Assembly: GCF_029854705.2 (NCBI RefSeq)
Contig: NZ_CP139035.1
Span: forward strand, 1,116,001-1,180,000
Direction of reading: 5' to 3'
From: Akkermansia sp. N21116
GTDB taxonomy: Bacteria; Verrucomicrobiota; Verrucomicrobiia; Verrucomicrobiales; Akkermansiaceae
DNA length: 64,000 nucleotides
Under the pieces are notes generated by a model that was given only the letters and a program-made list of their open reading frames with translations, was not told where the DNA came from and did no database searches. Position numbers and translations under genes: made by a program. This document shows positions 33,200-52,254 of this stretch, piece after piece. Numbering within the stretch: position 1 is the first letter of the stretch; each line of letters opens with the position of its first letter.

Positions 33200-33276
<77 letters not shown>

Positions 33277-33440: not shown

Positions 33441-34565
33441 ATGTCTTCTAATCCTGATATATCCTATTGTTTGCCTCCCGACGGTAAATACGATCGAGAA
33501 GGAGGAATGATCATTCATATGATGTCCGATAAGGACAGGGATTCAGGGCTACCTCCTGAGGATGGATATTTCAGAATTGAATGTACAGCGGGAGAGCACA
33601 GGATTGTCTGTATTCCAAAACTGATCATGCGGCTGAATTCTGTAATGAAAACAGTTATAGAAAGTAAGAAAAAGAAGAAAAAGAAAAAGAAAGAAGAGGA
33701 TGAGATACTTTCCTTCTTAGCGCATGAGGGAAGGTGTTTATTGACCGCTTCTCACAGTAATCAGCTCAAAGAACAACTCAAGAAAGAATATAAGCTTGTA
33801 GACGAGGTGGATAACTTACTTAATCGAGAAGAATCCGAGGAAATTCAGGATTGTATGCGGTCAATAGGCCAAGGGGATAATCCAGAGCTTCTACAAGCTG
33901 ATATAGATCGACTAAGATCTGAAGAAGAGGATAAATATTTAGAGGATATAGACATTGATTCAGAAGAAGCCTGCTTTATAAAGTCGCTTCTCAAAAATCG
34001 TAACTGTGCCCGAGAATGGGCAGAAGCATCACGGCGAGAGATATCTATTGAAGAAGCTATGCTGAACGAGACATTGAAAAAAAGCGGAGAGATATTTCTT
34101 CGAGCTATTCAAGAGAAGAAGGCTTTAGTCTTTAAAGCAGGCAACTGGATTGTGGAGAACGATCTTGGGAAGTACTTTTTTCATCATGAATATGTCTGGT
34201 CTCCGGAATTACAAACTCAGCTGGAAGATGATGATCAGTTCAAAAAAGGATATCCAATTCTTGTCGAACTATGTAGAAGATGCCACGGAAAAGGTCTATC
34301 CTATACAAATTTGGAACAAACTGTTTCATTAAAAGATTGCCGGGAAATAGCACGGGAAGCAGAGAATGACTTTTTCGAAGAATTACAAACCCAAGGATTC
34401 AAACGTTATTTAGAACGGCTAGGGTTTTATTGGATTTTTTCCAACTATGGAAATGAGCGGGGAAGACCTAAAACAAATAAGTTCGTAGAACAAAAGCCGT
34501 TGAGCAAGCGTGAAGCAAATCGCCGATCAACTGATCCTGCTAGCAAAAGGGACAGAAGGAAATGA
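33441..34565 (+). CDS. unrecognised charged cytoplasmic protein
   Basis: This encodes 374 residues, acidic and Lys-rich, with no signal peptide or membrane helix. A run of nine lysines encoded by AAA/AAG lies near residues 76-84. Much of the middle (about 85-240) is predicted helical and highly charged. The C-terminal third has a CRRCHGKG pair and a Trp/Phe-rich segment (LGFYWIFSNYGNERGRP) that hints at a folded domain. It is the first gene after the tRNA boundary and is AT-richer than the core, suggesting acquired DNA. No family recognised. Confidence 0.7.
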   Translation: MSSNPDISYCLPPDGKYDREGGMIIHMMSDKDRDSGLPPEDGYFRIECTAGEHRIVCIPKLIMRLNSVMKTVIESKKKKKKKKKEEDEILSFLAHEGRCLLTASHSNQLKEQLKKEYKLVDEVDNLLNREESEEIQDCMRSIGQGDNPELLQADIDRLRSEEEDKYLEDIDIDSEEACFIKSLLKNRNCAREWAEASRREISIEEAMLNETLKKSGEIFLRAIQEKKALVFKAGNWIVENDLGKYFFHHEYVWSPELQTQLEDDDQFKKGYPILVELCRRCHGKGLSYTNLEQTVSLKDCREIAREAENDFFEELQTQGFKRYLERLGFYWIFSNYGNERGRPKTNKFVEQKPLSKREANRRSTDPASKRDRRK

Positions 34566-34646: not shown

Positions 34647-35873
34647 ATGACTCCACGATACACACTCCACCATCAGGTAAGGCGACTGGATGGAACACTC
34701 TGCGGCAATGACAGGAAGTATTCGACCGGGGACATTCTGTTCTCAGACAGAAGGAAGCGAATCGTTCTGGGAGAATCTATTGCGGAAGGCGGCGAAGGTT
34801 CCGTCTTTGCTGCCCATGCAGCATCGGCATCGCCACTCGTTGCCAAACTCTATCATCCGAACCAACGGACACGTTGGCGCGAGCAGAAGCTTCAGCGGAT
34901 GTGTTCCCGCCCGATACGGTCTCCGTGCGTCGCATGGCCGCGTGAGATTTTGTACGACGAGCTGCGGCGTTTTGTCGGCGTACTGATGCCCCGGGAGGAC
35001 GGTGTTCCGCTCGGGGCTTTTGCGTTTCATGCAGAGCTGCTGAAGAAGCAGTTCCCTTCATGGAACCGTTACGATCTGACCAGGCTATGTCTGAACTTGT
35101 CGGAATCAGTCCATACGCTGCACCGTTACGGTATCGTTCTGGGCGATCTGCATCCCGGTAATGTGATGGTTTCTCCCGATGGCACCGTCTGTTGGGTTGA
35201 TGCCGACAGTTTCCAGATCGAAGATTATCCCTGTTCGGTTGGCACAGAACGGTTCCGAGCACCGGAGCTTCGCGATAATTACGGAAACTTCCTCCGTACC
35301 CGGAGCCACGATACCTACGCCCTGTCCGTCCTGCTATCCATGACATTGACTTTCGGCCTGTCTCCCTTTGCCCGGCAAGGTAGTGGAGAAGACATGCAGG
35401 AAGCCGTCAGGAAGGGAGTACTGCCGTATCCGTTTGCTTCGTACAAACCGCCGCCGGGAATTTACCCGCCCGATACGCCCGGACGCTATGTCTGGTCGTA
35501 TCTCCTCCGCAAGCTCCGCGATGCCCTCGGTCATAACCTCACCTGTGTCCAGCGTCGCGATTTGCGTCCACGCGCCATGCCGGGGTATCTGGCGCGTTGT
35601 TTGCAGCAATACCTCAGGGATATGGAGCCGGGAGGCAGAAGGGATCATCCCATGTACCGGGATCTTCTGCATGACCGGCCCTGTCCGCCCCACAGTCTGT
35701 TGGCGCAGATGACACCGAACATCTGCACGGACTGCGGTATTCTGTTCCGGGAAGCTCCTGACGACATCGCACGGCGTTTACGGCAATCTCATGCCCGTCC
35801 CCTGTGCAGGCTCTGCATCAGACGTCGCAGTGCGTTGAATCAGGCATTCCTGAATACAACCATCAACCATTAA
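34647..35873 (+). CDS. protein-kinase-fold protein with C-terminal zinc ribbon
   Basis: This encodes 408 residues. Kinase features: Gly-rich GEGSVFAA with Lys67 (LVAKLYHP), a catalytic loop GDLHPGNV with Asp167 and Asn172, and a metal motif VDADS with Asp185 in place of DFG. It resembles the bacterial kinases found with TerY-type vWA proteins. The C-terminal 70 residues carry two CxxC pairs (CTDCGILF, CRLC), a zinc ribbon. It is GC-rich and precedes a vWA gene by 11 bases, forming a two-gene operon. Cytoplasmic. Substrate unknown, the vWA protein being the obvious candidate. Confidence 0.82.
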   Translation: MTPRYTLHHQVRRLDGTLCGNDRKYSTGDILFSDRRKRIVLGESIAEGGEGSVFAAHAASASPLVAKLYHPNQRTRWREQKLQRMCSRPIRSPCVAWPREILYDELRRFVGVLMPREDGVPLGAFAFHAELLKKQFPSWNRYDLTRLCLNLSESVHTLHRYGIVLGDLHPGNVMVSPDGTVCWVDADSFQIEDYPCSVGTERFRAPELRDNYGNFLRTRSHDTYALSVLLSMTLTFGLSPFARQGSGEDMQEAVRKGVLPYPFASYKPPPGIYPPDTPGRYVWSYLLRKLRDALGHNLTCVQRRDLRPRAMPGYLARCLQQYLRDMEPGGRRDHPMYRDLLHDRPCPPHSLLAQMTPNICTDCGILFREAPDDIARRLRQSHARPLCRLCIRRRSALNQAFLNTTINH

Positions 35874-35884
35874 TTTGAATAACC

Positions 35885-36679
35885 ATGTCTATATCATCAT
35901 CGACACAACCAAACAAACAGGAACAGCTCGCCGCCATGCGCGAGTTCAGCAACAACACCAACGCCCGGCTTCCCGTTCTCTTCCTGCTGGATGCCAGCAG
36001 CAGTATGAACGGCATTGTCCGGGGCGACAACCAACACATCCTCCGCCAGGAGCATTCTGACGGGATCAACTGGAATATCGTCACGGGAGACAATATCGTC
36101 ACCCGGATGGACGAACTCAATACCGGGTTCCAGCGGTTCGTCAGCGATATCCTCGCCGATCCTCTGGCGAAGCTGGCCGCCGATGTAGCGGTGATCACAT
36201 TCGCCCGGACAACGACGACGGTGAAAGAATTCGGTCCGATCCGGGAATCAGACACAGGCCTGAAGATCTCCACGTCACAGGAGAATGAAACGCTCCTGGG
36301 CGAAGCTGTCGAGCTGGCTCTGACTGAACTCGATAGGCGCAAACGTACCTACCGGAAACACGGAGTGGAATACTACCAACCGTGGCTCGTCGTGATGACA
36401 GACGGAGTACCGACCAGCGCCCGGCACCGGGAGCTGGAGGAACGATTGAAGGAACTGACGGCTGCCCGCAAGCTCAGCGTGTTCGTCTTCGGTATCGGCC
36501 GCGCTGATCTGTCGGAGCTTTCCTGCATCAGCCCGGGGCGTCCTCCCATGCAGGTCAATGATCAGAAGTTCCCGGAACTGTTCGCATGGCTGAGCCGTAG
36601 CGTCCATATGGTCAGCATGTCCATGCCGGGCGACGGGGTATCGTTGACTCCTCCCCCCGAAGATGTGTGGCAGGTATAG
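35885..36679 (+). CDS. vWA-domain protein (TerY-like)
   Basis: This encodes 264 residues that are mostly one von Willebrand A domain. The metal-ion-dependent adhesion site is DASSS (Asp36, Ser38, Ser40) in FLLDASSSMNG, followed by a conserved Thr/Asp region and WLVVMTDGVPT. There is no signal peptide, so it is cytoplasmic. TerY proteins of this kind are found with a kinase and a PP2C phosphatase in tellurite/stress and phage-defence-related loci; here the kinase is upstream but no phosphatase is present. An intrinsic terminator follows. Confidence 0.85.
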   Translation: MSISSSTQPNKQEQLAAMREFSNNTNARLPVLFLLDASSSMNGIVRGDNQHILRQEHSDGINWNIVTGDNIVTRMDELNTGFQRFVSDILADPLAKLAADVAVITFARTTTTVKEFGPIRESDTGLKISTSQENETLLGEAVELALTELDRRKRTYRKHGVEYYQPWLVVMTDGVPTSARHRELEERLKELTAARKLSVFVFGIGRADLSELSCISPGRPPMQVNDQKFPELFAWLSRSVHMVSMSMPGDGVSLTPPPEDVWQV

Positions 36680-38306: not shown

Positions 38307-39893
38307 TCATTCTTGAGAAACGGGTAATTTCTGTGCCCGTTTCTGGGCCATGTTCATCAGGAAGCTCATTTGATCCGTGGAGTCCTTACTGATAACATCA
38401 TTCAATTTCCAGAAAAATTCTGCGAGTTGAGCATCATTGCATTCTTTCTGAATTCTGTCTTCCATGGCAGGAAGCAATAGTTCCTCCTCCCTGGTTTCAG
38501 CCGGATAGGTGGCAATGACATCATCAGTGATATTTGACAGGGGCAGTCGGACTTCGTTGAGATACCCCTTATTCAGTTCATCACAGGTTGCCCCCCATTT
38601 TTTCATCAATGCATCATATCTCTTCCCGATGATATCGAGGTAATCCATGGCGTCATTGTAGGTCGCAAGGGACAGAATCTCCTTTTCCAGCTCCTGTTTC
38701 AGTTCATCCATCTCCTTGAGGCATTGGCGTTGCGCTGTCTCGGCCTTCCGTTCGTATTCCTTAACTTTGCCAAGGTAGTCTTCCAGTTTGTAGTAGGCTC
38801 GGATTTTTTTGTACAGAGCATCCTTGAATTCCTGAGATGGCCTGGCTGCCCATTGTTCGGACGGATGGGATGCAGAAGAAGGAACGTCAGTCCGGGACGA
38901 CTGTTGCCATAGCCATACGCCGGCAAGTACAAGAATGATGACGGCAACAGTGACTGCGGAGGAAACGGTTTTTCTGGTAGCTCCCGTTTTCCGTAGCCCC
39001 CTGGGTTTTCCCTGATCCAGCCATTCCTTCCACTGTCCCGCTGTCTGGCAACGCTCTTCAGGCTTGAGCCGCAGATTCCGGTCAATAGATGCCAGTAATT
39101 CCCGAGGCCATGGTTGGGAAAATGTCATGCCTGAGAGTGGGACGACATCATCCTGCATCAACCGCCTGTCAGCCGGTTCAGCGGGTGTTCCGGTAATCAG
39201 CTCGTACCAGGTTGCGGCCAATGCATAAAAGTCCGTCCATGAACCGATTTTGCCTTTTCCAGTGATTTGTTCCGGGGAGGCGTAGGCGTACGAGAATTCT
39301 CCCTGAGTGATCGTACAGGTCACTTCCGGCTTGTTGAGCGCCGCCCCGAAGTCGATCAGAACCGGTAATCCCCGTTCGTCAAAAAGGATGTTGCCGGGCT
39401 TGATGTCGCGATGAGAAATCCCCTTGCCATGGAGATAGTCCAGCCCATCCAGAAGGAGCAGGAGCCACTCGACGGTTTGTTCCGTGGTCATCGTACTGTT
39501 CCCGTTGGCTACTTCGTCCATGCGTTCCCGCAGCGAACCGCCTTCCAACCACGGCATCACATAGAAGATGCTTCCATGGGACTCGAAGACGTCGTAGACC
39601 CGGACGATACGTTCATGGTTCAGGAAAGCCAGCGTCTGCGCCTCCTTGCGGAGAGTATCCATCGCGGCCCGGTACACCTGCTGTGATGCGTGCGGAAGGG
39701 GGATAATGGCGCTGGTATCCGGATCGCGGCTACATAGCCCCAACGGAAAACATTCCTTGAGAACGATGTTGCGCCTGAGCTGGCTGTCCCAGGCAATGTA
39801 GGTGATGCCGAAACCTCCCTGTCCCAGTACCTTGAGCAACTTGTAATTGCCCAGCAGAGTTCCCGGAGGCAATGCGAAGCCGGAGGCGTCCAT
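38307..39893 (-). CDS. transmembrane Ser/Thr protein kinase with extracytoplasmic helical domain
   Basis: From the ATG ending at 39893 this is 528 residues. The kinase domain is complete: glycine loop GQGGFG (24-29), Lys46, HRDIKPGN with Asp163 and Asn168, DFG at 181-183 and ASPEQ. One transmembrane helix (about 310-330) is followed by a 200-residue helical region, probably periplasmic, which could sense a signal. A TTG at 39905 is an alternative start. The HTH gene ends 4 bases before this start, so they form an operon. The opposite strand carries ankyrin and GYF genes that may be substrates; that is inference. Confidence 0.93.
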   Translation of the reverse strand: MDASGFALPPGTLLGNYKLLKVLGQGGFGITYIAWDSQLRRNIVLKECFPLGLCSRDPDTSAIIPLPHASQQVYRAAMDTLRKEAQTLAFLNHERIVRVYDVFESHGSIFYVMPWLEGGSLRERMDEVANGNSTMTTEQTVEWLLLLLDGLDYLHGKGISHRDIKPGNILFDERGLPVLIDFGAALNKPEVTCTITQGEFSYAYASPEQITGKGKIGSWTDFYALAATWYELITGTPAEPADRRLMQDDVVPLSGMTFSQPWPRELLASIDRNLRLKPEERCQTAGQWKEWLDQGKPRGLRKTGATRKTVSSAVTVAVIILVLAGVWLWQQSSRTDVPSSASHPSEQWAARPSQEFKDALYKKIRAYYKLEDYLGKVKEYERKAETAQRQCLKEMDELKQELEKEILSLATYNDAMDYLDIIGKRYDALMKKWGATCDELNKGYLNEVRLPLSNITDDVIATYPAETREEELLLPAMEDRIQKECNDAQLAEFFWKLNDVISKDSTDQMSFLMNMAQKRAQKLPVSQE

Positions 39894-39897
39894 ACAA

Positions 39898-40254
39898 TCA
39901 GGCAAGCGGGGGATTGCCGAGCCTCGGCACTTCGTCGGCCAGGAACTCCTTCAGGGTCTTACCCTGGGAGAAGGCTTTTTTCTCAAGAACCTTGCGAGTA
40001 TCCGGATCGAGCTTCAGGGTAATCAACGTCTCTTCTTCCACCTGCACCCGGCTCGGGAGAGTCATCGGGAGCTGTTTGATGAGTTCCCGGATGATGTGTT
40101 CCTTGGCGGCGGGAATGGGCTTTTTCGCCATCCAGTTGCGGACGGTCGCTTCCGTCACGAAACATCGTTCGGCGAGCCATGCGTAGTCAAAGTTGTTGGC
40201 TTTGAGCCACAGCTTGACGTTCATTTTCAGCTCATCCTGGTTCACTCCTGCCAT
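39898..40254 (-). CDS. small HTH protein upstream of kinase
   Basis: This encodes 118 residues from the ATG ending at 40254. Residues 10-50 (LKANNFDYAWLAERCFVTEA, then TVRNWMAKKPIP) look like a lambda-repressor-type helix-turn-helix; the C-terminal half is a Lys/Glu-rich segment (DPDTRKVLEKKAFSQGKTL) that resembles a ribbon-helix-helix or degron-like tail. It precedes the kinase gene by 4 bases and may regulate it or be its target. A longer upstream start is possible but adds no domain. Confidence 0.75.
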   Translation of the reverse strand: MAGVNQDELKMNVKLWLKANNFDYAWLAERCFVTEATVRNWMAKKPIPAAKEHIIRELIKQLPMTLPSRVQVEEETLITLKLDPDTRKVLEKKAFSQGKTLKEFLADEVPRLGNPPLA

Positions 40255-40384
40255 GTTTCGGAATGTAGCACTATCGCTCAGGAATGGCAATACGGTTATA
40301 CAGCATCCCTATTTTTGAGATTAAACTGAGATTTTCATGTTGACTAAAATCGTAAAAAGGAGATATACAGGCAATGTAAACGAG

Positions 40385-40927
40385 ATGCCGGCAATGAAAA
40401 GTATCATCCAGTTCACCTGTCCCCAATGCGGAGGCCATCAACTGATGCTCGTCGAACGAGCCATGCACCGTTCTATCGTCCAGACTCTGGAAACGGACCG
40501 ACAGGGAGAATTGACTGTCGGTCACAAGGTTCTGGTGGACGATTTGTGCGGGGAACCATTGGGGTATCGCTGTGCGGACTGCCGTCATCCGGATTGCCAT
40601 GGTCATGATTCATCGGAAGGGTTTCAGTGGCATTCTCTGGAGGAGGTGCAAAGCGCCGGGGGTATTGTCTGGCCGGACGGGATGGAAACGGTAGAGCACA
40701 GGTGCATGGTTTGTTTCCCCGACGGGAAGATGACGCCTGTGATCGTCGAGGTCGTTCATCCCGGAACTCTCACCGAGAAGGAACGCCGCACCGTTCTGGA
40801 ACGTGAACGAGCAGCGCATGGCATCCTGATCAGCCAGTCGGATTCCGGTATCCGGACATTGTCCTGCCGCAACTGGAAGCGGGTCAAAAGGCATATTCTT
40901 CAATCAATCAACACATCTATTTTATGA
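40385..40927 (+). CDS. zinc-ribbon protein of unknown role
   Basis: This is a Cys-rich cytoplasmic protein of about 180 residues with four Cys pairs or clusters: CPQCGG, CADCRHPDCHGHD, CMVC and a late Cys. This suggests a double zinc ribbon. The start is uncertain: an in-frame ATG at 40337 extends it by 16 residues, while the good ribosome site AAGGAG (40357-40362) points to an ATG at 40374 that is followed at once by TAA. It overlaps the next gene by 4 bases (ATGA), so it heads the long plus-strand cluster. Confidence 0.75.
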   Translation: MPAMKSIIQFTCPQCGGHQLMLVERAMHRSIVQTLETDRQGELTVGHKVLVDDLCGEPLGYRCADCRHPDCHGHDSSEGFQWHSLEEVQSAGGIVWPDGMETVEHRCMVCFPDGKMTPVIVEVVHPGTLTEKERRTVLERERAAHGILISQSDSGIRTLSCRNWKRVKRHILQSINTSIL

Positions 40928-41331
40928 CTATGACTTCCATATTGGCAGAAATCAATCCTTATGTTTTCATAAGAGGCGCGCAGGAATTGCAAAAAACAGA
41001 AACAGGAAGAGAGATTCTGTTTACATTGCTCTCCTCCGGATTGTTTGGTTTTGCAATCTTTCTGGCGCTCTACTGGTTGTCCGAGCATAAAGAGCCGGCG
41101 GCAATCAAGGACTTCAAGACGATTGCCATTGTATTCGCCGTGGTTGATCTCATCCTTGCCGTGATAGACTCCGGTTTTCTCGCCTTGCTGGAATTGGCAG
41201 CCATTGTCCTGGTTGCTCATAAAGTTTTGAATTTCACACTGGGCAAATCATTCGGCGTATTGGGCATCAGTATAGGGATTTCTCTTGTCGGAGGTTTTCT
41301 GGCAGCAGTGATTTTGGGTGTCGAGATATAA
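40924..41331 (+). CDS. multi-TM protein with module shared by neighbours
   Basis: This encodes 135 residues with about four transmembrane helices and no soluble domain. The last 100 residues match the C-terminal membrane domains of the next two proteins: compare AIVFAVVDLILAVID with GLAVFDMLGN and NFTLGKSFGVLGISI with NFQCSWKRSFTILGLML two genes downstream. It appears to be the minimal form of that membrane module. It starts within the stop of the zinc-ribbon gene. Function unknown. Confidence 0.75.
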   Translation: MTMTSILAEINPYVFIRGAQELQKTETGREILFTLLSSGLFGFAIFLALYWLSEHKEPAAIKDFKTIAIVFAVVDLILAVIDSGFLALLELAAIVLVAHKVLNFTLGKSFGVLGISIGISLVGGFLAAVILGVEI

Positions 41332-41346
41332 ACGCGATAAGGGATA

Positions 41347-42507
41347 ATGGGAGCAAGAGTCCACAGACGAAAAATTCGATTTCCCCGGGTCATTATTCTG
41401 ATGGCAGTCTTGTTGTGTCTCTGCAGTACCTACAATGCTTCCTCACAGATATACAGCGGAGGCGGGGATATAAGAGTTAATGAAGGATGGGGAGACACTT
41501 TGGGCCCCCACTACACGATCGATGAATTGTCCAGATTCATGTATCTTGCTGTATCGAAAGGCCAGGACAAAGAGGTTCTAAGACTGATACAGGAAGGCGC
41601 TGATATTAACGCCAGAGACCAGGGAGGCAGAACATTCCTTATATGGGCTTCGATGGGAGGACATGAGAGAATTGCCAGGATATTGATTGATGCCGGGGCA
41701 GATGTTCATGCGAAAGATGCAAAAGGTGCAACAGCTCTCATGCTGGCCGCCGCATGGGGATATGATACCATCGTTCAGATGTTGATTCTGGCAGGGGCAG
41801 ATGTTAACGCAACAAGTAGCGGACATGAAATCACTTCTCTTCTGGCAGCTTCGCTCAAAGGTCATGCTGAAATTGTAAAGATGCTTATTCATGCAGGAGC
41901 CGACATTAACGTCAAAGGATTCGAAGAAACAACTCCCCTGATGATAGCTTCGGAAAACGGTCATGAACAAGTAGTCCGAATACTGATTGATGCGGGAGCT
42001 CATCTTGAAGCACAAAATGAATTTGGCAAGACTGCCCTCAAATTGGCTTCGGATAAAGATCACGATAATATCGTGAAAATATTGAAAAAAGCAGGCGCCA
42101 GAGGAGACTGGCTATGGATAAGCCTTTTGTACAGCATAATCCTGGGAGTGGTAATGTTTGTAGTTATTGCCGTGTTTTCAGCTGTCGGGAAAAATGGTGG
42201 ATACAAAAGACTTATTCTATGGAGTGCCGGGGTAACAGTAGCTGACATGTGCTGCAATTTAACATTTGGTGGCTGGATACCGTATTTTATCCATGAATTC
42301 AGGTTCTGGGGAATCCTTGACAGATCACTCAATTTCCCTTGGGGTGTGTGGTATTCATTCTTAATGATAAGCCTTGGAATTCTGGTCGAACTTCGGACAG
42401 CTTGCGACTTTAAATGGTCCTGGGGACGTTCTTACGTTACTCTTTTCAGTATTTTGGCTCTAACTCTTTTCGCATCTTATCATGCAGGCAACATTCTGCT
42501 CGGATGA
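41347..42507 (+). CDS. exported ankyrin-repeat protein with C-terminal membrane module
   Basis: This encodes 386 residues. An N-terminal signal or anchor (residues 14-34) precedes about six ankyrin repeats (residues 60-255; repeated ADVHAKDAKGATALMLAA-like units), then four transmembrane helices (from about 258). The C-terminal module carries RLILWSAGVTVADMCCN and WSWGRSYVTLFSILAL, like the two flanking proteins. The repeats should lie in the periplasm, as for a protein-binding or shielding surface. It starts 16 bases after the previous gene. Role unknown. Confidence 0.85.
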   Translation: MGARVHRRKIRFPRVIILMAVLLCLCSTYNASSQIYSGGGDIRVNEGWGDTLGPHYTIDELSRFMYLAVSKGQDKEVLRLIQEGADINARDQGGRTFLIWASMGGHERIARILIDAGADVHAKDAKGATALMLAAAWGYDTIVQMLILAGADVNATSSGHEITSLLAASLKGHAEIVKMLIHAGADINVKGFEETTPLMIASENGHEQVVRILIDAGAHLEAQNEFGKTALKLASDKDHDNIVKILKKAGARGDWLWISLLYSIILGVVMFVVIAVFSAVGKNGGYKRLILWSAGVTVADMCCNLTFGGWIPYFIHEFRFWGILDRSLNFPWGVWYSFLMISLGILVELRTACDFKWSWGRSYVTLFSILALTLFASYHAGNILLG

Positions 42508-42532
42508 AATTAACATAAATACAAACATAACA

Positions 42533-43303
42533 ATGAATACAGTACGCCATAGACAAAGACTTGGGATAAAAAGGAGCATTCTTACTGCTCTGTTGATGGG
42601 ATTTTGCTGCCTTTTTTATACCCCTGAGGCGTTCTCTGATGAACCAAGCTCCCCACCGCAGATGAATGGTCTGGACGCAGATATGGCTAAAGGTGTCGCT
42701 TTAGCGAAGAAGCGCTATGGGGATCAATTACGTGAGCAGTATATGGGAGGCACTAATACGGCCAAGGAATATGCTATAGGAGCTCTCCGAATGGAGAACG
42801 CTATTGCTGAAGCCGAAGGTAAAGGCGACACTGGCCGTGCTAACGTGTTACGTCAGCAATTGGCGGCTGTTCAGAGCTCAAATCAGCGTAGTATTGCTGC
42901 ATTACAACAGAAGGCTGACGCAGGAGATATTGAGGCACGAAGAGAACTGGATGAATACTACGCATTCATGAAAACCGTGGAAGGCTCTTCTTCTGCGGGT
43001 TCGTTTCCATTCCTGATCAGCATCATATCCGGTCTGTTGTTATACGGGTATATTGTGCTGCTTTCTCCCAAGGATGCTAGAATAAATCGGAAAACATTGA
43101 TCACGTGGTGTGTTGGCCTAGCCGTCTTCGATATGCTTGGCAATTGGGTGAATCAATCATGGCTCTTTCTTTTCGTTGAAATCCTGGTCATCCTTGTAGT
43201 TGTCCGAAACTTCCAATGCTCATGGAAACGTTCCTTTACTATCCTGGGACTCATGCTTGTCTCCATACTCATTCTGGGAGGGCTGTTGCCATTATTCTTC
43301 TGA
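42533..43303 (+). CDS. secreted helical domain plus membrane module
   Basis: From the ATG at 42533 this is 256 residues. A signal-like helix (residues 15-31) is followed by an Ala/Glu/Gln-rich helical domain with SEL1-like spacing (NVLRQQLAAVQSSNQ, then KADAGDIEARRELDEY), then about three to four transmembrane helices. The membrane part (RKTLITWCVGLAVFDMLGNW, then NFQCSWKRSFTILGLML) is the module seen in the two preceding genes. The 5' end overlaps the end of the ankyrin gene region if an earlier ATG were used. Function unknown. Confidence 0.78.
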   Translation: MNTVRHRQRLGIKRSILTALLMGFCCLFYTPEAFSDEPSSPPQMNGLDADMAKGVALAKKRYGDQLREQYMGGTNTAKEYAIGALRMENAIAEAEGKGDTGRANVLRQQLAAVQSSNQRSIAALQQKADAGDIEARRELDEYYAFMKTVEGSSSAGSFPFLISIISGLLLYGYIVLLSPKDARINRKTLITWCVGLAVFDMLGNWVNQSWLFLFVEILVILVVVRNFQCSWKRSFTILGLMLVSILILGGLLPLFF

Positions 43304-43342
43304 TGCGTTTTCTCTCGTTCGGTTCATGAATCCACGCCTTTG

Positions 43343-44140
43343 ATGCTTATGATTTCCTATTACCTTGTCCGACCGGACAGCACACAGGAAGGACCTTTTT
43401 CCGAAGATGAACTAAAAGGGTTCTATCATCAGCGGACTCTGCCTCCCGGATCTTACGTTTGGACAGAAGGATGGGATCAATGGCGCCCCTGTGAAGACGC
43501 CTTTGAATGGTTTATTTCCAGCGCCAAGTTGCCGCCTCTTCCTCCACATTTCGGTTCAGAAGGTACAGCCTCCCATTCAGACACATCGCCTGCTCATGCT
43601 GAAAAACACGAGAAAGCCTTGTCTTCAGATGAAATGAAGGCATCGACAACAAGGGAATACAAAACCTTGTCAGATTGGATTCAGAACCAGGAAATTCTGA
43701 ATCAGATTCATCAGTGGGGATTGCGGGCATTACAGGTGAAAGGACAAACATACGGGATAAACCATTATACGGTCTGTGTTATTGGCCTGATGCTGATGGT
43801 CGTCATCCTTTCGTTTGGTTCGGAGAAAACCGCTGTTCCCCAGTATGAATCAAATGCGTGGATACAGAACAATACGGGCGGAGGCGACAATTCGGACTAT
43901 CAGTTGCAACAAATGGTTCATGCGGCCAATAAATTTTATGAAAACAATGCCATGGAAATCTGCAAAAGATGCGGAGGAAGCGGGGTCGTGACGCCGGGTA
44001 GTGGAAGGGCTCTCTGGAATCGAGCGGAATCAAATCAATACCGCATGCCTTGTCCGCAATGTGGCGGAGCTGGCGAAGTACCACGATCCCGGAATATCGG
44101 ACGTTTCAATGACGGTACTTATCAGGGAAGCGGCTGGTAA
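43343..44140 (+). CDS. GYF_2-domain protein with zinc-binding C terminus
   Basis: This encodes about 265 residues. Residues 1-55 are a GYF_2 (DUF4339) domain: YYLVRPDSTQEGPFSEDE then SYVWTEGWDQWRPCEDAF, a fold thought to bind proline-rich peptides. One transmembrane helix lies near residues 140-157. The tail carries CKRCGGSGVV and CPQCGGAGEV, the DnaJ-type zinc motif. ATG at 43343 is taken; 43349 is also possible. The next gene, 14 bases later, starts with an almost identical GYF_2 domain, so these two are recent partial paralogs. Confidence 0.85.
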   Translation: MLMISYYLVRPDSTQEGPFSEDELKGFYHQRTLPPGSYVWTEGWDQWRPCEDAFEWFISSAKLPPLPPHFGSEGTASHSDTSPAHAEKHEKALSSDEMKASTTREYKTLSDWIQNQEILNQIHQWGLRALQVKGQTYGINHYTVCVIGLMLMVVILSFGSEKTAVPQYESNAWIQNNTGGGDNSDYQLQQMVHAANKFYENNAMEICKRCGGSGVVTPGSGRALWNRAESNQYRMPCPQCGGAGEVPRSRNIGRFNDGTYQGSGW

Positions 44141-44154
44141 ATCAGACAGGAATC

Positions 44155-44862
44155 ATGAACGATTATCATATAACACGACCAGACGGCACCCAGGAAGGTC
44201 CGTTCTCGGAGGAAGAGCTGGAGGAACTTTACCGGGACAGGAAGCTTCCGCAAGGATCTCTGGTATGGACACCCGGCTGGGCTACGTGGAAAGCTTGTGA
44301 AGATGCGTTCTCCTGGTATGCGCCTCCTCCACCGTTGCCCGGTGCACTGAACAATGGTCGGGGAAGGAAAATATCTCCCTTCCTTCAGGATGCATGGTTA
44401 TATATGGCAATAGGATTTGGGATAATTATTCTTATTTTTACTATCGCTGCTTTTTGGCCTAAAATTAAACTAGGGCCTTTAGCAATAATGGGATTTGTTT
44501 TTATATTCAAAGGCTTTGGATCTTTCCGGAAGCATTCCATGGCGAAAGGAGAAAAAACAAAAGCTACGCCTGTTCGTTCCGTCCATACTCATGGGCGACA
44601 TAAAAGCAGTATCATTGCAGGTTTGCTGGCTATCTTCCTGTGGCCTGTTGGCGCTCATAAATTCTACAATGGAAGCTGGGGGTGGGGGATCATATATATT
44701 GTGATCATTGTTGCTGCGTGGGTTAACCCTAATCCGAATCTTGGAATTTTATGGATTTCCGAATTCATCCTTGCTCTCATTCAAGGGATATGGTGGCTGG
44801 CAAACCCGGTTTACTATCATAGAAAGTATAACGAAACGTCTCCTTCTCCTATGAAGTGGTAA
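44155..44862 (+). CDS. GYF_2 plus TM2-domain membrane protein
   Basis: This encodes 235 residues. The GYF_2 domain (HITRPDGTQEGPFSEEELEE, then SLVWTPGWATWKACEDAFSW) is very close to that of the gene before it. About two transmembrane helices follow at 80-125, then a TM2 domain with the usual short helical hairpin (GLLAIFLWPVGAHKFYNGSW, then GIIYIVIIVAAW). TM2 domains are found with stress and secretion proteins. It is in the same plus-strand run and likely sits in the inner membrane next to the other modules. Confidence 0.85.
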   Translation: MNDYHITRPDGTQEGPFSEEELEELYRDRKLPQGSLVWTPGWATWKACEDAFSWYAPPPPLPGALNNGRGRKISPFLQDAWLYMAIGFGIIILIFTIAAFWPKIKLGPLAIMGFVFIFKGFGSFRKHSMAKGEKTKATPVRSVHTHGRHKSSIIAGLLAIFLWPVGAHKFYNGSWGWGIIYIVIIVAAWVNPNPNLGILWISEFILALIQGIWWLANPVYYHRKYNETSPSPMKW

Positions 44863-44893
44863 CCAGAAAGAAAAGACTCTAACACATAAACAT

Positions 44894-45880
44894 ATGAAAT
44901 CGAAGATATATCAAATAGGTCACGTTGTCGCTCTTGCGCTGATTTCCGCAGTACTCCTTTCCTCATGTGGAAAAACCGATAACCCCGAAGCCAATAAAAG
45001 AGATTCGAATGGGAATACGGTTCTTATGAAGGCTGTCAAAGAGGGGAACGTTGATTGGGTGACGGAACTGATCAAAGACGGAGCACGTGTAGATGCGAAA
45101 GGGCAAGGAGGGATAACTGCCCTCATGTGGGCTGCTGCTCTTGGGCATGCGGACTGCGTGAAAGCATTGATAGCCGCCGGAGCGGATATCAATGCGAAAG
45201 AAGATAAGGATGGTAGTACAGCTCTTATGGTAGCTGTTCTTAAGGGGCATACGGACTGCGTAAAAGCATTGATAGCTGCCGGAGCGGATATCAATGCGAA
45301 AGAAGATAAGAAGGGGTATACGGCGTTGATGTTTGCTGTTGGTGAGGACAATACGGATTGTGTAAAAGCATTGCTGAAAGCTGGAGCGAATGTGAATGTG
45401 AAAGCCAAAAAGGAGCGAACAGCTCTTATGATAGCAGTTCGTAAGAAGGATTCTGAAAGTGTGAAAACATTGATAGATGCCGGAGCGGATGTTAACGCTA
45501 AGGACAAAAATGGAATGACGGCTCTCTGGATGGCTGATTCTGACTGTGTGAAGATACTGATATCTGCCGGGGCGAATGTGAACGCAAAGAATAAGGAGGG
45601 TTGGACGGCTCTCATGGATGCTACTGAGGATGGGCATGTTGAAAGAGTAAAAGTACTGCTGGAAGTTGGCGCAGATGCGAACGCGAAGACTAAGGATAGG
45701 GAAACGGCGCTCATGATAGCTGCTGCTCTTGGTCATGCGGACTGCATGAAAGTATTGTTAGCAGCCGGGGCAGACATAACCGTGAAGGATAAGGATGGGG
45801 AAACGGCTCTTATGAAAGCTATTAGATATAAAAACGCAAATTGCGAGAAGTTACTACAGGAATCGGTATCCAGAAAGTAG
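44894..45880 (+). CDS. ankyrin-repeat lipoprotein
   Basis: This encodes 328 residues. The N terminus is a lipoprotein signal with lipobox LSSC (about residue 26). The rest is about nine ankyrin repeats of 33-34 residues, with the consensus DGxTALMxAVxxGHxDCVKALI then AAGADINAKE. Two neighbouring repeats are almost identical at DNA level (45151-45208 and 45253-45310), showing recent internal duplication. It should be anchored in the outer or inner membrane with the repeats exposed. Last gene of the GYF/ankyrin run. Confidence 0.9.
   Translation: MKSKIYQIGHVVALALISAVLLSSCGKTDNPEANKRDSNGNTVLMKAVKEGNVDWVTELIKDGARVDAKGQGGITALMWAAALGHADCVKALIAAGADINAKEDKDGSTALMVAVLKGHTDCVKALIAAGADINAKEDKKGYTALMFAVGEDNTDCVKALLKAGANVNVKAKKERTALMIAVRKKDSESVKTLIDAGADVNAKDKNGMTALWMADSDCVKILISAGANVNAKNKEGWTALMDATEDGHVERVKVLLEVGADANAKTKDRETALMIAAALGHADCMKVLLAAGADITVKDKDGETALMKAIRYKNANCEKLLQESVSRK
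45151..45310 (+). repeat. near-identical ankyrin-unit DNA repeat
   Basis: A 58-base segment beginning GGACTGCGT at 45151 recurs at 45253 with about two changes, offset by 102 bases (exactly 34 codons, one ankyrin repeat). This shows recent tandem duplication inside the lipoprotein gene. Confidence 0.8.
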
Positions 45881-45965
45881 CGTTGGAATAACTCCTTTAA
45901 GCTGTCTTTGATGAAATATCCTCTTGCTGGTTGTCATGTATATTTAAGGAAGGAGATTCTTTATT

Positions 45966-46301
45966 ATGAAAGACAAACCAATCAAACAACCTTGGTCCCG
46001 GAGTGCAAAGATGACGGTGTGGGTGCTGGGTATCGTATTCAGCTTTGTGACGTTTCTTGCATTTGCGTATGTTCCTCCATGCAAAGAATGTATGCGTAGG
46101 GACGCAGAGAGTCATACCACATGGCCGATACCGAATCCAAGTTGCGTGCCCGTGGCGGCGATGCTTGCAGATACTCTAAAAGACCAAAGGACCAAGCATC
46201 CGAAGGATTTTCCTCCTCCTAAGACACAGGATGAGGAGTTTATCAAAGACATCCTGGATGCGGACGATACGGTCGAGTATCTGAAATCTGTGGGATATTA
46301 A
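45966..46301 (+). CDS. small single-TM protein
   Basis: This encodes 111 residues: a basic start (KDKPIKQPWSRSAKMT), one transmembrane helix (about 16-36) and a Cys/Pro-bearing tail (YVPPCKEC, then an acidic end). The N terminus recurs as KNKRPWPRSAKVMVWVL in the decayed gene at 46553, so this is one of a small family. A strong terminator follows at 46307. It may be a separate unit from the ankyrin lipoprotein, 85 bases upstream. Confidence 0.68.
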   Translation: MKDKPIKQPWSRSAKMTVWVLGIVFSFVTFLAFAYVPPCKECMRRDAESHTTWPIPNPSCVPVAAMLADTLKDQRTKHPKDFPPPKTQDEEFIKDILDADDTVEYLKSVGY

Positions 46302-50539: not shown

Positions 50540-50950
50540 ATGATTATGGACATAATACGATTGAATGGAAAAGATAAACTTCTGTATGATCTTGTTGCAC
50601 CTCTGGCCATGAACCCTGCCGTTATCAGACAGAATAATGGTTATCCGTTTAAAACATCCCAGCAACATGTATGGTATATAGCGGTAAGTGATGATTCCGT
50701 CGTTGGCTTTATGCCGTTAAAAAAGGGTTCTGCCGGCATGCTTATTGATAATTATTACATAAGAGGCGACGATAGTAATATAATCACCGGGTTGGTGGAA
50801 AAAACAGTATGCGACTTTGGTTCTTCGGGGACTTTGGCGGCAATGGTATTCAAGCGGCATGTGGAAATTTTTCGCAATCTCTATTTTCTGTCCGTTGTCG
50901 AATTGAAGAATTACGACAAGATGGAATATCGCAGGTTATTGAAAGCGTAA
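50540..50950 (+). CDS. GNAT-like protein of IbrA/IbrB module
   Basis: This encodes 136 residues. The centre (WYIAVSDDSVVGFMPLKKGS) and the later IITGLVEKTVCDFGSSGTLA look like strands 2-4 and the acetyl-CoA helix of a small GNAT fold, with a late NLYFLSVVELKNYDKMEY matching the last strands. An in-frame ATG lies at 50546. Its stop overlaps the IbrA start by one base (TAATG), so the two are translationally coupled. Acetyltransferase call is from pattern only. Confidence 0.68.
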   Translation: MIMDIIRLNGKDKLLYDLVAPLAMNPAVIRQNNGYPFKTSQQHVWYIAVSDDSVVGFMPLKKGSAGMLIDNYYIRGDDSNIITGLVEKTVCDFGSSGTLAAMVFKRHVEIFRNLYFLSVVELKNYDKMEYRRLLKA

Positions 50951-52254
50951 TGACCCGGCAACCGAATGTTTATGAAGCAGTCCAAGGCAGGTTGAAAGTA
51001 ATCTTCGACCATTTCGATTATGTGTATGTTTCTTTTTCCGGAGGCAAGGATAGTGGTTTGTTGCTGAATCTTTGCATTGATTATATTCGCCGCAATGTAC
51101 CGGGACGAAAACTTGGCGTCTTTCATATGGATTATGAGGTACAGTATCGTCAAACGACGGATTATGTGCTCAGGACCTTGGAAAAAAACAGAGATATCCT
51201 TGATGTCTATCATTGCTGCGTGCCGTTCAAGGTTTCTACTTGCACATCCATGTTCCAGACGTATTGGAGGCCGTGGGAGAAAAACAAACAGCCTCTTTGG
51301 GTTCGCAACATGCCGGAGGGTTGCATGAAAGCGGATGATTTCGATTTTTTTTCGGATGATTTGTGGGACTATGATTTTCAGTATCTTTTTGCTCCGTGGC
51401 TGAAGAGCCGGAAAAAATGTCATCGAGTATGTGCCCTGATAGGCATACGCACACAGGAGAGTTTCAACCGCTGGAGAGCCATACATAGCAGCAAGAATTA
51501 CAGGCGCTTCCAGGACCATAAATGGACTCACAAACTGGGTTGCAACATATATAACGCCTATCCTCTTTATGACTGGAAAACTTCTGATGTATGGATAGCC
51601 AATGGCAGATTCCGCTGGGACTATAATCGGTTGTACGATCTCTATTATCAGGCGGGAGTTCCTCTCCATCGGCAAAGGGTAGCAAGCCCGTTTATCTCGC
51701 AAGCCATCTCCGCCCTCTCCCTTTACCGTGCCATTGACCCGGATATGTGGGGGAAAATGATTGGCCGGGTCAACGGCGTGAATTTTGCAGGCATTTACGG
51801 AAAAACCAAGGCAATGGGGTGGAAATCCATCACTTGCCCCGAAGGGTTCTCCTGGAAGCAGTATATGTATTTCCTTCTTGATACGCTTCCTGAAAAAGTA
51901 CGTGGTAATTATCTGAGGAAGCTGGAAGTCAGCATGCGTTTTTGGAAAAAACGTGGCGGATGTCTGAGCCGGACAACGATTAGAAAGCTAAAAGATGCCG
52001 GAGTAAAATTCACGGTGGGGCGTTCAACTGCCTACCATACGGATAAGAAACCCGTCAGAATGGAGTACCTTGACGACATTGATATTGCAGAGTTCAAAGA
52101 AATTCCTACGTACAAACGAATGTGCATTTGCATCATCAAGAATGACCACGTGTGCAAGTATATGGGTTTTTCTCCGACCAAGGAAGAAAAAGACAGGAGA
52201 GAGAAAATCATGGAAAAGTACAAATCCCTGGAAAAATGGAAAAAGCGTTTGTAA
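50950..52254 (+). CDS. ibrA: IbrA-like PAPS-reductase-family protein (DUF3440)
   Basis: This encodes 434 residues. The PP-loop SGGKDS (residues 30-35) in YVSFSGGKDSGLLLNL marks an ATP-pyrophosphatase of the PAPS reductase/adenylation fold. The rest matches the IbrA group: FHMDYEVQYRQTTDYV, the GIRTQESFNRW segment, and the WKTSDVWIAN motif. IbrA with IbrB controls expression of eib genes in E. coli prophage and the pair is often found on phages and islands. The 3' end overlaps the ibrB-like gene by 19 bases. The likely chemistry is nucleotide-dependent transfer or modification, not proven. Confidence 0.88.
   Translation: MTRQPNVYEAVQGRLKVIFDHFDYVYVSFSGGKDSGLLLNLCIDYIRRNVPGRKLGVFHMDYEVQYRQTTDYVLRTLEKNRDILDVYHCCVPFKVSTCTSMFQTYWRPWEKNKQPLWVRNMPEGCMKADDFDFFSDDLWDYDFQYLFAPWLKSRKKCHRVCALIGIRTQESFNRWRAIHSSKNYRRFQDHKWTHKLGCNIYNAYPLYDWKTSDVWIANGRFRWDYNRLYDLYYQAGVPLHRQRVASPFISQAISALSLYRAIDPDMWGKMIGRVNGVNFAGIYGKTKAMGWKSITCPEGFSWKQYMYFLLDTLPEKVRGNYLRKLEVSMRFWKKRGGCLSRTTIRKLKDAGVKFTVGRSTAYHTDKKPVRMEYLDDIDIAEFKEIPTYKRMCICIIKNDHVCKYMGFSPTKEEKDRREKIMEKYKSLEKWKKRL

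Follow-up and report, generated by a model that had tools for sequence, protein, structure and literature searches.

The gene cluster at positions 38307-46301 of the stretch analyzed here, a window of 64,000 nucleotides (bases 1116001-1180000 of the single 3.5-Mb contig of an Akkermansia genome, G000), is, judged by its published description, the Akkermansia stlA salt-tolerance locus, reported once, in 2013. It comprises a transmembrane Ser/Thr kinase gene (KIN) and a helix-turn-helix (HTH) gene on the minus strand, and a divergent plus-strand run led by a zinc-ribbon gene (ZNR). An earlier interpretation made from the DNA alone (the sequence-only reading) had presented this cluster as an undescribed signalling system. 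The open reading frames (ORFs) it listed were all present at their positions and on their strands, and its domain calls held when compared with Pfam; judged by description, however, the 2013 work on stlA had already sequenced this gene set, and a heterologous phenotype is on record for the fosmid copy of StlA. Our analysis establishes which genes the locus contains and how they are linked, the conservation of its promoter, its domain layout, and its recurrence and duplication. New in this work is a genus-wide core made up of the kinase, the HTH/ribbon-helix-helix (RHH) protein and the divergent ZNR, in which the constant neighbor is the HTH gene and not the kinase.

The identification was made by the published description and not by alignment to JQ269600, and the description is, feature by feature, a very specific one. 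According to the parts of Culligan et al. (2013, PMC3861447) drawn on here, StlA is a 257-amino acid (aa) protein from the Akkermansia-like fosmid SMG 25 (GenBank JQ269600) with a signal peptide at residues 1-35, four transmembrane (TM) regions and a C-terminal Phe. It allowed E. coli MKH13 to grow in 3-4% NaCl and in 4% KCl and was reported there to be without effect in sucrose, glycerol, bile or acid, or in Lactococcus, while a transposon inserted in stlA between A136 and Q137 abolished the salt tolerance of the fosmid clone (PMC3861447). Counted from MNTVR, the StlA-like protein is 256 aa in the window, 257 aa in relatives and 256-258 aa overall. With the same numbering, A136-Q137 is exact in the relatives at loci L043 and L045 and differs in the window copy; the C-terminal end LPLFF is present in the window, L009 and L043 proteins. 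The promoter predicted for stlA (-35 TTGGCT, -10 TCTTATCAT) lies 77 bp upstream of the gene (PMC3861447), and in the window TTGGCT-18-TATCAT is found at 42454, 79 bp before the likely start of the StlA-like gene at 42533 (256 aa). C-terminal TM regions are also present in the window protein, their number here being taken from hydropathy only.

Gene order was compared as well. Table 1 of the 2013 paper lists a kinase, proteins of 108, 84, 160 and 135 aa, StlA, a DnaJ zinc finger, DUF4339, TM2, ankyrin and then DUF932, and the stool-scaffold neighbors given there include kinase, vWA, COG4248, RhuM-like virulence protein and RecB-like genes (PMC3861447). This fosmid order (kinase, small protein, two short ORFs, 135-aa protein, StlA, DnaJ-type zinc, DUF4339, TM2, ankyrin and, later, DUF932) is also that of the window, with the ankyrin, DnaJ zinc-finger and DUF4339/TM2 neighbors on the same strand as StlA; the listed scaffold neighbors have counterparts in the window too, and a lateral-transfer signature is a further shared feature. 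While the DnaJ-zinc, DUF4339 and TM2 portions were called as separate ORFs on the fosmid, they form two intact proteins (GYF1 and GYF2) in the window, which also carries an extra ankyrin-membrane protein. Neither control by kinase and HTH, nor the pairing of GYF proteins, nor a core common to the genus is brought up in the parts of PMC3861447 drawn on here.

With respect to the control unit, hydropathy and charge place in KIN an N-terminal cytosolic kinase domain (residues ~16-300), a single TM region at 314-332 and a helical extracytoplasmic C-terminal domain. Among 97 genomes searched, the best full-length matches of KIN were within the genus only. In G056 the C-terminal part is replaced and the kinase domain is kept, mostly at 75-97% identity per 40-residue block, as would be expected for a sensor. 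The HTH ORF overlaps KIN by 8 bp, and a longer HTH ORF extends to 40290. The starts of both HTH and ZNR were revised because the upstream parts of their ORFs were unconserved or held promoter elements: the HTH protein most likely begins at ATG 40254 (118 aa), and ZNR likely begins at ATG 40394 (177 aa), since the first 19 codons of the longer ORF overlap the conserved promoter. With these likely starts, the promoter interval is 40254-40394. Nearly every ZNR gene is preceded by the pattern TTGAC, 15-18 nt and a TA-rich -10 element. Structure searches with the HTH model gave HipB/SinR-like local fold matches and no significant match overall; T49 and T112 of the HTH protein are invariant. In the ZNR alignment C28, C31, C79, C82 and C126 are invariant and C123 nearly so; profile searches against Pfam and structure searches against the PDB left ZNR without a match, the ZNR model being poor (pLDDT 69).

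Matches to the HTH protein were obtained in 68 of 76 Akkermansia genomes, and close relatives in named genomes were from Akkermansia in every case. The HTH gene adjoins a kinase in 34 of the 37 genomes checked, the exceptions being G002 and G006, which lack a kinase beside HTH, and G009, whose two matches are both near contig ends. ZNR was matched in 32 Akkermansia genomes, each time adjoining and diverging from HTH, with an ORF gap of ~46-204 bp in correctly called cases and the conserved promoter inside it. Outside the genus no ZNR was found among 388 sampled Verrucomicrobiota genomes, and distant HTH matches came from three genomes of other genera; in viral contigs ZNR had no relatives and HTH a single distant one (31%), and plasmids yielded no HTH match. 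The G100 kinase is interrupted at codon 68 by an insertion, with HTH, ZNR and the whole cargo downstream of ZNR kept, whereas G048 has a stop in the kinase and has lost the cargo; these losses indicate that the HTH-promoter unit is more constant than the kinase. A run without any kinase, which the sequence-only reading had named in advance as an outcome that would refute its proposal, was therefore found in part: the G100 run is intact beside a cut kinase, and there is no adjacent kinase in G002 and G006 (HTH-ZNR-GYF) or in G004 and G016 (HTH with cargo).

The gene following ZNR is on the same strand in 20 of 27 ZNR loci, the remainder having a gene on the other strand or a contig end. The cargo was of several types: MEM-StlA-GYF-ankyrin as in the window, GYF_2-Sel1, GYF_2 with a cysteine-rich domain, ankyrin-TM, dynamin-like GTPase with DUF697, and vWA-vWA-kinase-phosphatase. 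A vWA-vWA-kinase-metallophosphatase cassette lies directly after ZNR in a rabbit Akkermansia (L081:7535-12332). Arrangements seen in a single genome, such as that of L085, where ZNR is followed by ABC transporter genes, were taken as chance neighbors. A second locus type, with an HTH protein ~45-55% identical and no ZNR, carries GYF_2-TM and GYF_2-PrsW genes; in G100 the same family of small one-TM proteins (SML) as in the window is present at this second type. GYF_2 fused to a PrsW-type intramembrane protease was observed beside the second-type HTH-kinase locus in L012, L074 and the rabbit Akkermansia locus L078. In human-type genomes 20 of 54 GYF_2 genes lay near HTH anchors against 0.6 expected, and in rabbit-type genomes 6 of 77 against 0.84, with probabilities that are indicative only, the tallies having been made by hand from search tables on genomes that are related to one another. 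GYF_2 genes are lacking at many HTH-kinase loci. In this respect the sequence-only reading was supported: the kinase, the HTH gene and the genes of the plus-strand run recur together as a unit, and GYF_2 is strongly over-represented beside HTH-kinase loci.

The locus is also duplicated. A paralogous copy at ~1.002-1.012 Mb of the same genome encodes KIN, HTH, ZNR, GYF1 and GYF2 proteins that are 91-100% identical to those of the window; MEM and the helical (StlA-like) protein are 77-78% identical, and this copy lacks the first ankyrin protein and has a different ankyrin lipoprotein. Where computable, the ratio of nonsynonymous to synonymous substitution rates (dN/dS) between the two copies ranged from 0.03 (HTH) to 0.42, indicating that the ORFs are maintained genes under purifying selection, which is strongest on HTH. 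The gene order of the run is repeated in this copy and in at least three other genomes, which is more than chance would give.

We consider it about an even chance that the cluster is an envelope (ionic/osmotic) stress locus on an Akkermansia genomic island, consisting of the stlA operon with its own control unit. The membrane kinase would sense something outside the inner membrane via its swappable C-terminal domain and would alter the activity of the HTH/RHH protein, probably by phosphorylation. The HTH/RHH protein may bind the gap between the two divergent promoters, and its binding would set the expression of both the kinase-HTH operon and the ZNR-led operon. The latter would supply exported ankyrin and StlA proteins together with inner-membrane GYF_2 proteins, and these may assemble a trans-envelope complex that guards the membrane under ionic stress. 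Kinase-HTH control, if true, would account for the clustering of GYF_2 membrane proteins near these kinases. In Akkermansia, one of the major gut bacteria of the mucus layer, we came across no earlier account of a regulatory circuit based on a kinase, and an isolated metagenomic finding, StlA, is here linked to its genomic home with its probable controller named. Some observations weigh against the stress-locus reading. StlA by itself, with neither kinase nor HTH, makes E. coli salt-tolerant and does not depend on the control unit for this; the StlA-like gene has its own predicted promoter, which makes its control by the ZNR promoter uncertain; and the cargo at some HTH-ZNR loci is of quite another kind (dynamin-like GTPases, vWA-kinase-phosphatase) or is missing altogether. 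A more general arrangement, which we put forward tentatively and regard as possible but doubtful, is that kinase, HTH/RHH protein and ZNR constitute a genus-specific plug-in phospho-switch whose sensor end (the kinase C-terminus) and cargo output are exchanged between strains. With both the sensor and the cargo (stlA-GYF-ankyrin, GYF-PrsW, dynamin-DUF697, vWA-kinase-phosphatase) exchangeable in this way, one controller type would run different envelope-protection cassettes.

An unlikely explanation is that the locus is a conflict system directed against phage or competitors, with kinase-HTH-ZNR as fixed sensor and controller and the variable cargo as effectors. The island setting, with RhuM, PDDEXK_1, DUF932 and ImmA/IrrE-like genes nearby, would suit this, as would the swapping, duplication and decay of cargo and the dynamin-like, LRAT and PrsW cargo at other loci. 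GTPase-centric conflict systems of the GAP1-N2 type include some with paired GYF domains fused to TM regions and some with a zinc-ribbon kinase beside a stand-alone vWA (Kaur et al. 2020, PMC7159879); GYF-TM pairs and a zinc-ribbon kinase with vWA (K2-VWA, Table 1) are both present in the window. The HTH-kinase-ZNR core, however, is no part of the GAP1-N2 description, and membership was rejected, DO-GTPase2 (PF19993) being found in 0 of 12 Akkermansia genomes including that of the window. No named defense system was recovered, the PADLOC matches reflecting only generic kinase and ankyrin similarity; the anti-phage kinase MAD6 was rejected (NF047741, 112 bits versus a cut-off of 460), and comparison with PD-T4-6, a family without a given curated cut-off, gave many generic kinase-domain matches. 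The locus has no recognizable nuclease, NADase or pore effector, and StlA has a salt phenotype. A literature search on kinase-HTH defense systems and on the GltJ GYF/MglA switch found nothing usable.

The sequence-only reading had itself favored a kinase with several membrane-linked substrates; in such a model the kinase would act mainly on the GYF_2 and ankyrin proteins, and HTH would regulate expression only. Kinase and GYF_2 genes are tightly linked at loci of several types, which is consistent with this, as are cytosolic GYF domains beside proline-rich linkers and a GYF-like ligand motif, LPPG, in the KIN N-terminus; LPPG recurs, however, in related kinases, some of them without GYF_2 neighbors, many HTH-kinase loci lack GYF_2, and the run survives loss of the kinase in G100. 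ANK1, StlA and ANK2 carry export signals, and their predicted extracytoplasmic location makes direct phosphorylation by a cytosolic kinase domain unlikely; HTH, ZNR and the GYF domains could still serve as substrates. Overall we judge this model improbable. There is also only a small chance that an island brought the kinase-HTH pair and the stlA cluster side by side with no functional tie between them, as cargo differing between loci, loss or absence of the kinase at some of them and the action of StlA alone in E. coli might suggest. Against this, HTH and ZNR are linked at every ZNR locus with the conserved promoter in the short gap between them, and GYF_2 is enriched in two diverged locus types.

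Two further systems were compared. Like the PASTA kinases (PknB/Stk1), KIN is a membrane-spanning Hanks-type kinase with an extracytoplasmic C-terminus, but it has no PASTA repeats and its C-terminus is helical and swapped between relatives; assignment to PknB/Stk1 was rejected (NF033483, 124 bits versus a cut-off of 450, no PASTA domain). GltJ/AglX of Myxococcus gliding resembles GYF1 in having a GYF domain in a membrane protein, and the closest PDB GYF domain to GYF1 was that of the myxobacterial gliding protein 7z3c (E 0.002). GltJ is part of a trans-envelope gliding complex. The similarity is weak and confined to the GYF domain, and no gliding genes were seen at the locus.

Features of the locus and its left neighbors are given in Table 1. 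Pfam E-values were 7.6e-12 and 6e-11 for GYF_2 and 1e-38 and 3e-92 for the ankyrin repeats, while the DnaJ_CXXCXGXG (3.5e-4) and TM2 (1.3e-4) matches fall under curated cut-offs. The membrane module said to be shared by three proteins was supported for the pair of helical and ankyrin proteins (hhalign 93%) and only weakly for the bare membrane protein MEM (36% and 3%).

Table 1. Positions and properties of features at the stlA locus (window coordinates)
Feature	Position	Strand	Description	Basis or remark
K2	34647-35873	+	Second kinase-like protein, C-terminal zinc ribbon	Pkinase 2.9e-8; left neighbor at same position in G004, G048, G056
VWA	35885-36679	+	Stand-alone vWA protein paired with K2	Pfam and locus comparison
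KIN	38307-39905	-	Hanks-type Ser/Thr kinase	Pfam Pkinase 1e-33; GxGxxG, HRD, DFG motifs
HTH	39898-40254	-	N-terminal helix-turn-helix, C-terminal ribbon-helix-helix-like part	Alignment, AlphaFold helices
ZNR promoter	40340-40369	+	Sigma70-like: TTGACT, spacer, TATACA	Conserved upstream of nearly all ZNR genes
ZNR	40394-40927	+	Zinc-ribbon protein, genus-restricted, divergent from HTH	Alignment; genus and phylum searches
MEM	40924-41331	+	Four-TM protein	Relatives start with lipobox (SLLSSC), missing in window copy
ANK1	41347-42507	+	Signal peptide, ankyrin repeats, C-terminal membrane module	Pfam; export signal; not in second copy
StlA-like	42533-43303	+	Signal peptide, helical region, C-terminal TMs	256 aa
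GYF1	43340-44140	+	GYF_2, Pro-rich linker (PPLPP), TM, C-terminal DnaJ-type double CxxCxGxG	Pfam
GYF2	44155-44862	+	GYF_2, Pro-rich linker (PPPPLPG), TM2-like C-terminus	Pfam
ANK2	44894-45880	+	Ankyrin-repeat lipoprotein, lipobox LLSSC	Pfam
SML	45966-46301	+	Small one-TM protein, tandemly amplified family	Tandem relatives in L009, L043, beside type-B locus in L074

SML proteins are ~110 aa and start MKDKxxKQPWPRSAKxTVWVLG, with variable C-termini (L009:13223-14666, L074:16123-17558 and the window copy). The K2-VWA pair (34647-36679) lies left of the kinase in several genomes and resembles the kinase-vWA part of GAP1-N2 systems. In the window, housekeeping genes (a gyrase subunit and an AcrB-type pump) precede a tRNA-Met at 33200-33276, and an island-like stretch with RhuM, PDDEXK_1, DUF932 and DUF5131 genes follows it, ImmA/IrrE-like genes also being near the locus. 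The tRNA was rejected as an attachment site, its 3' end having no second copy in the window, and the ORF at 33441 was not recognized as an integrase. A PAPS-reductase/DUF3440 protein is encoded in the island at 50809-52254. A diverged island segment is present in two copies, at window 36828-62992 and G000:C1:1002067-1028354, with matches of 87-91% in the PDDEXK_1 and DUF932 regions; next to the second copy of the locus, a Hint-like-domain protein lies beside a truncated Fic-like gene (L009:3966-5450). Just past the window end is a third HTH-kinase locus, L071 (G000:C1:1187688-1192666), which combines a short kinase with two HTH proteins in tandem and has small lipoprotein-like genes in a divergent row.

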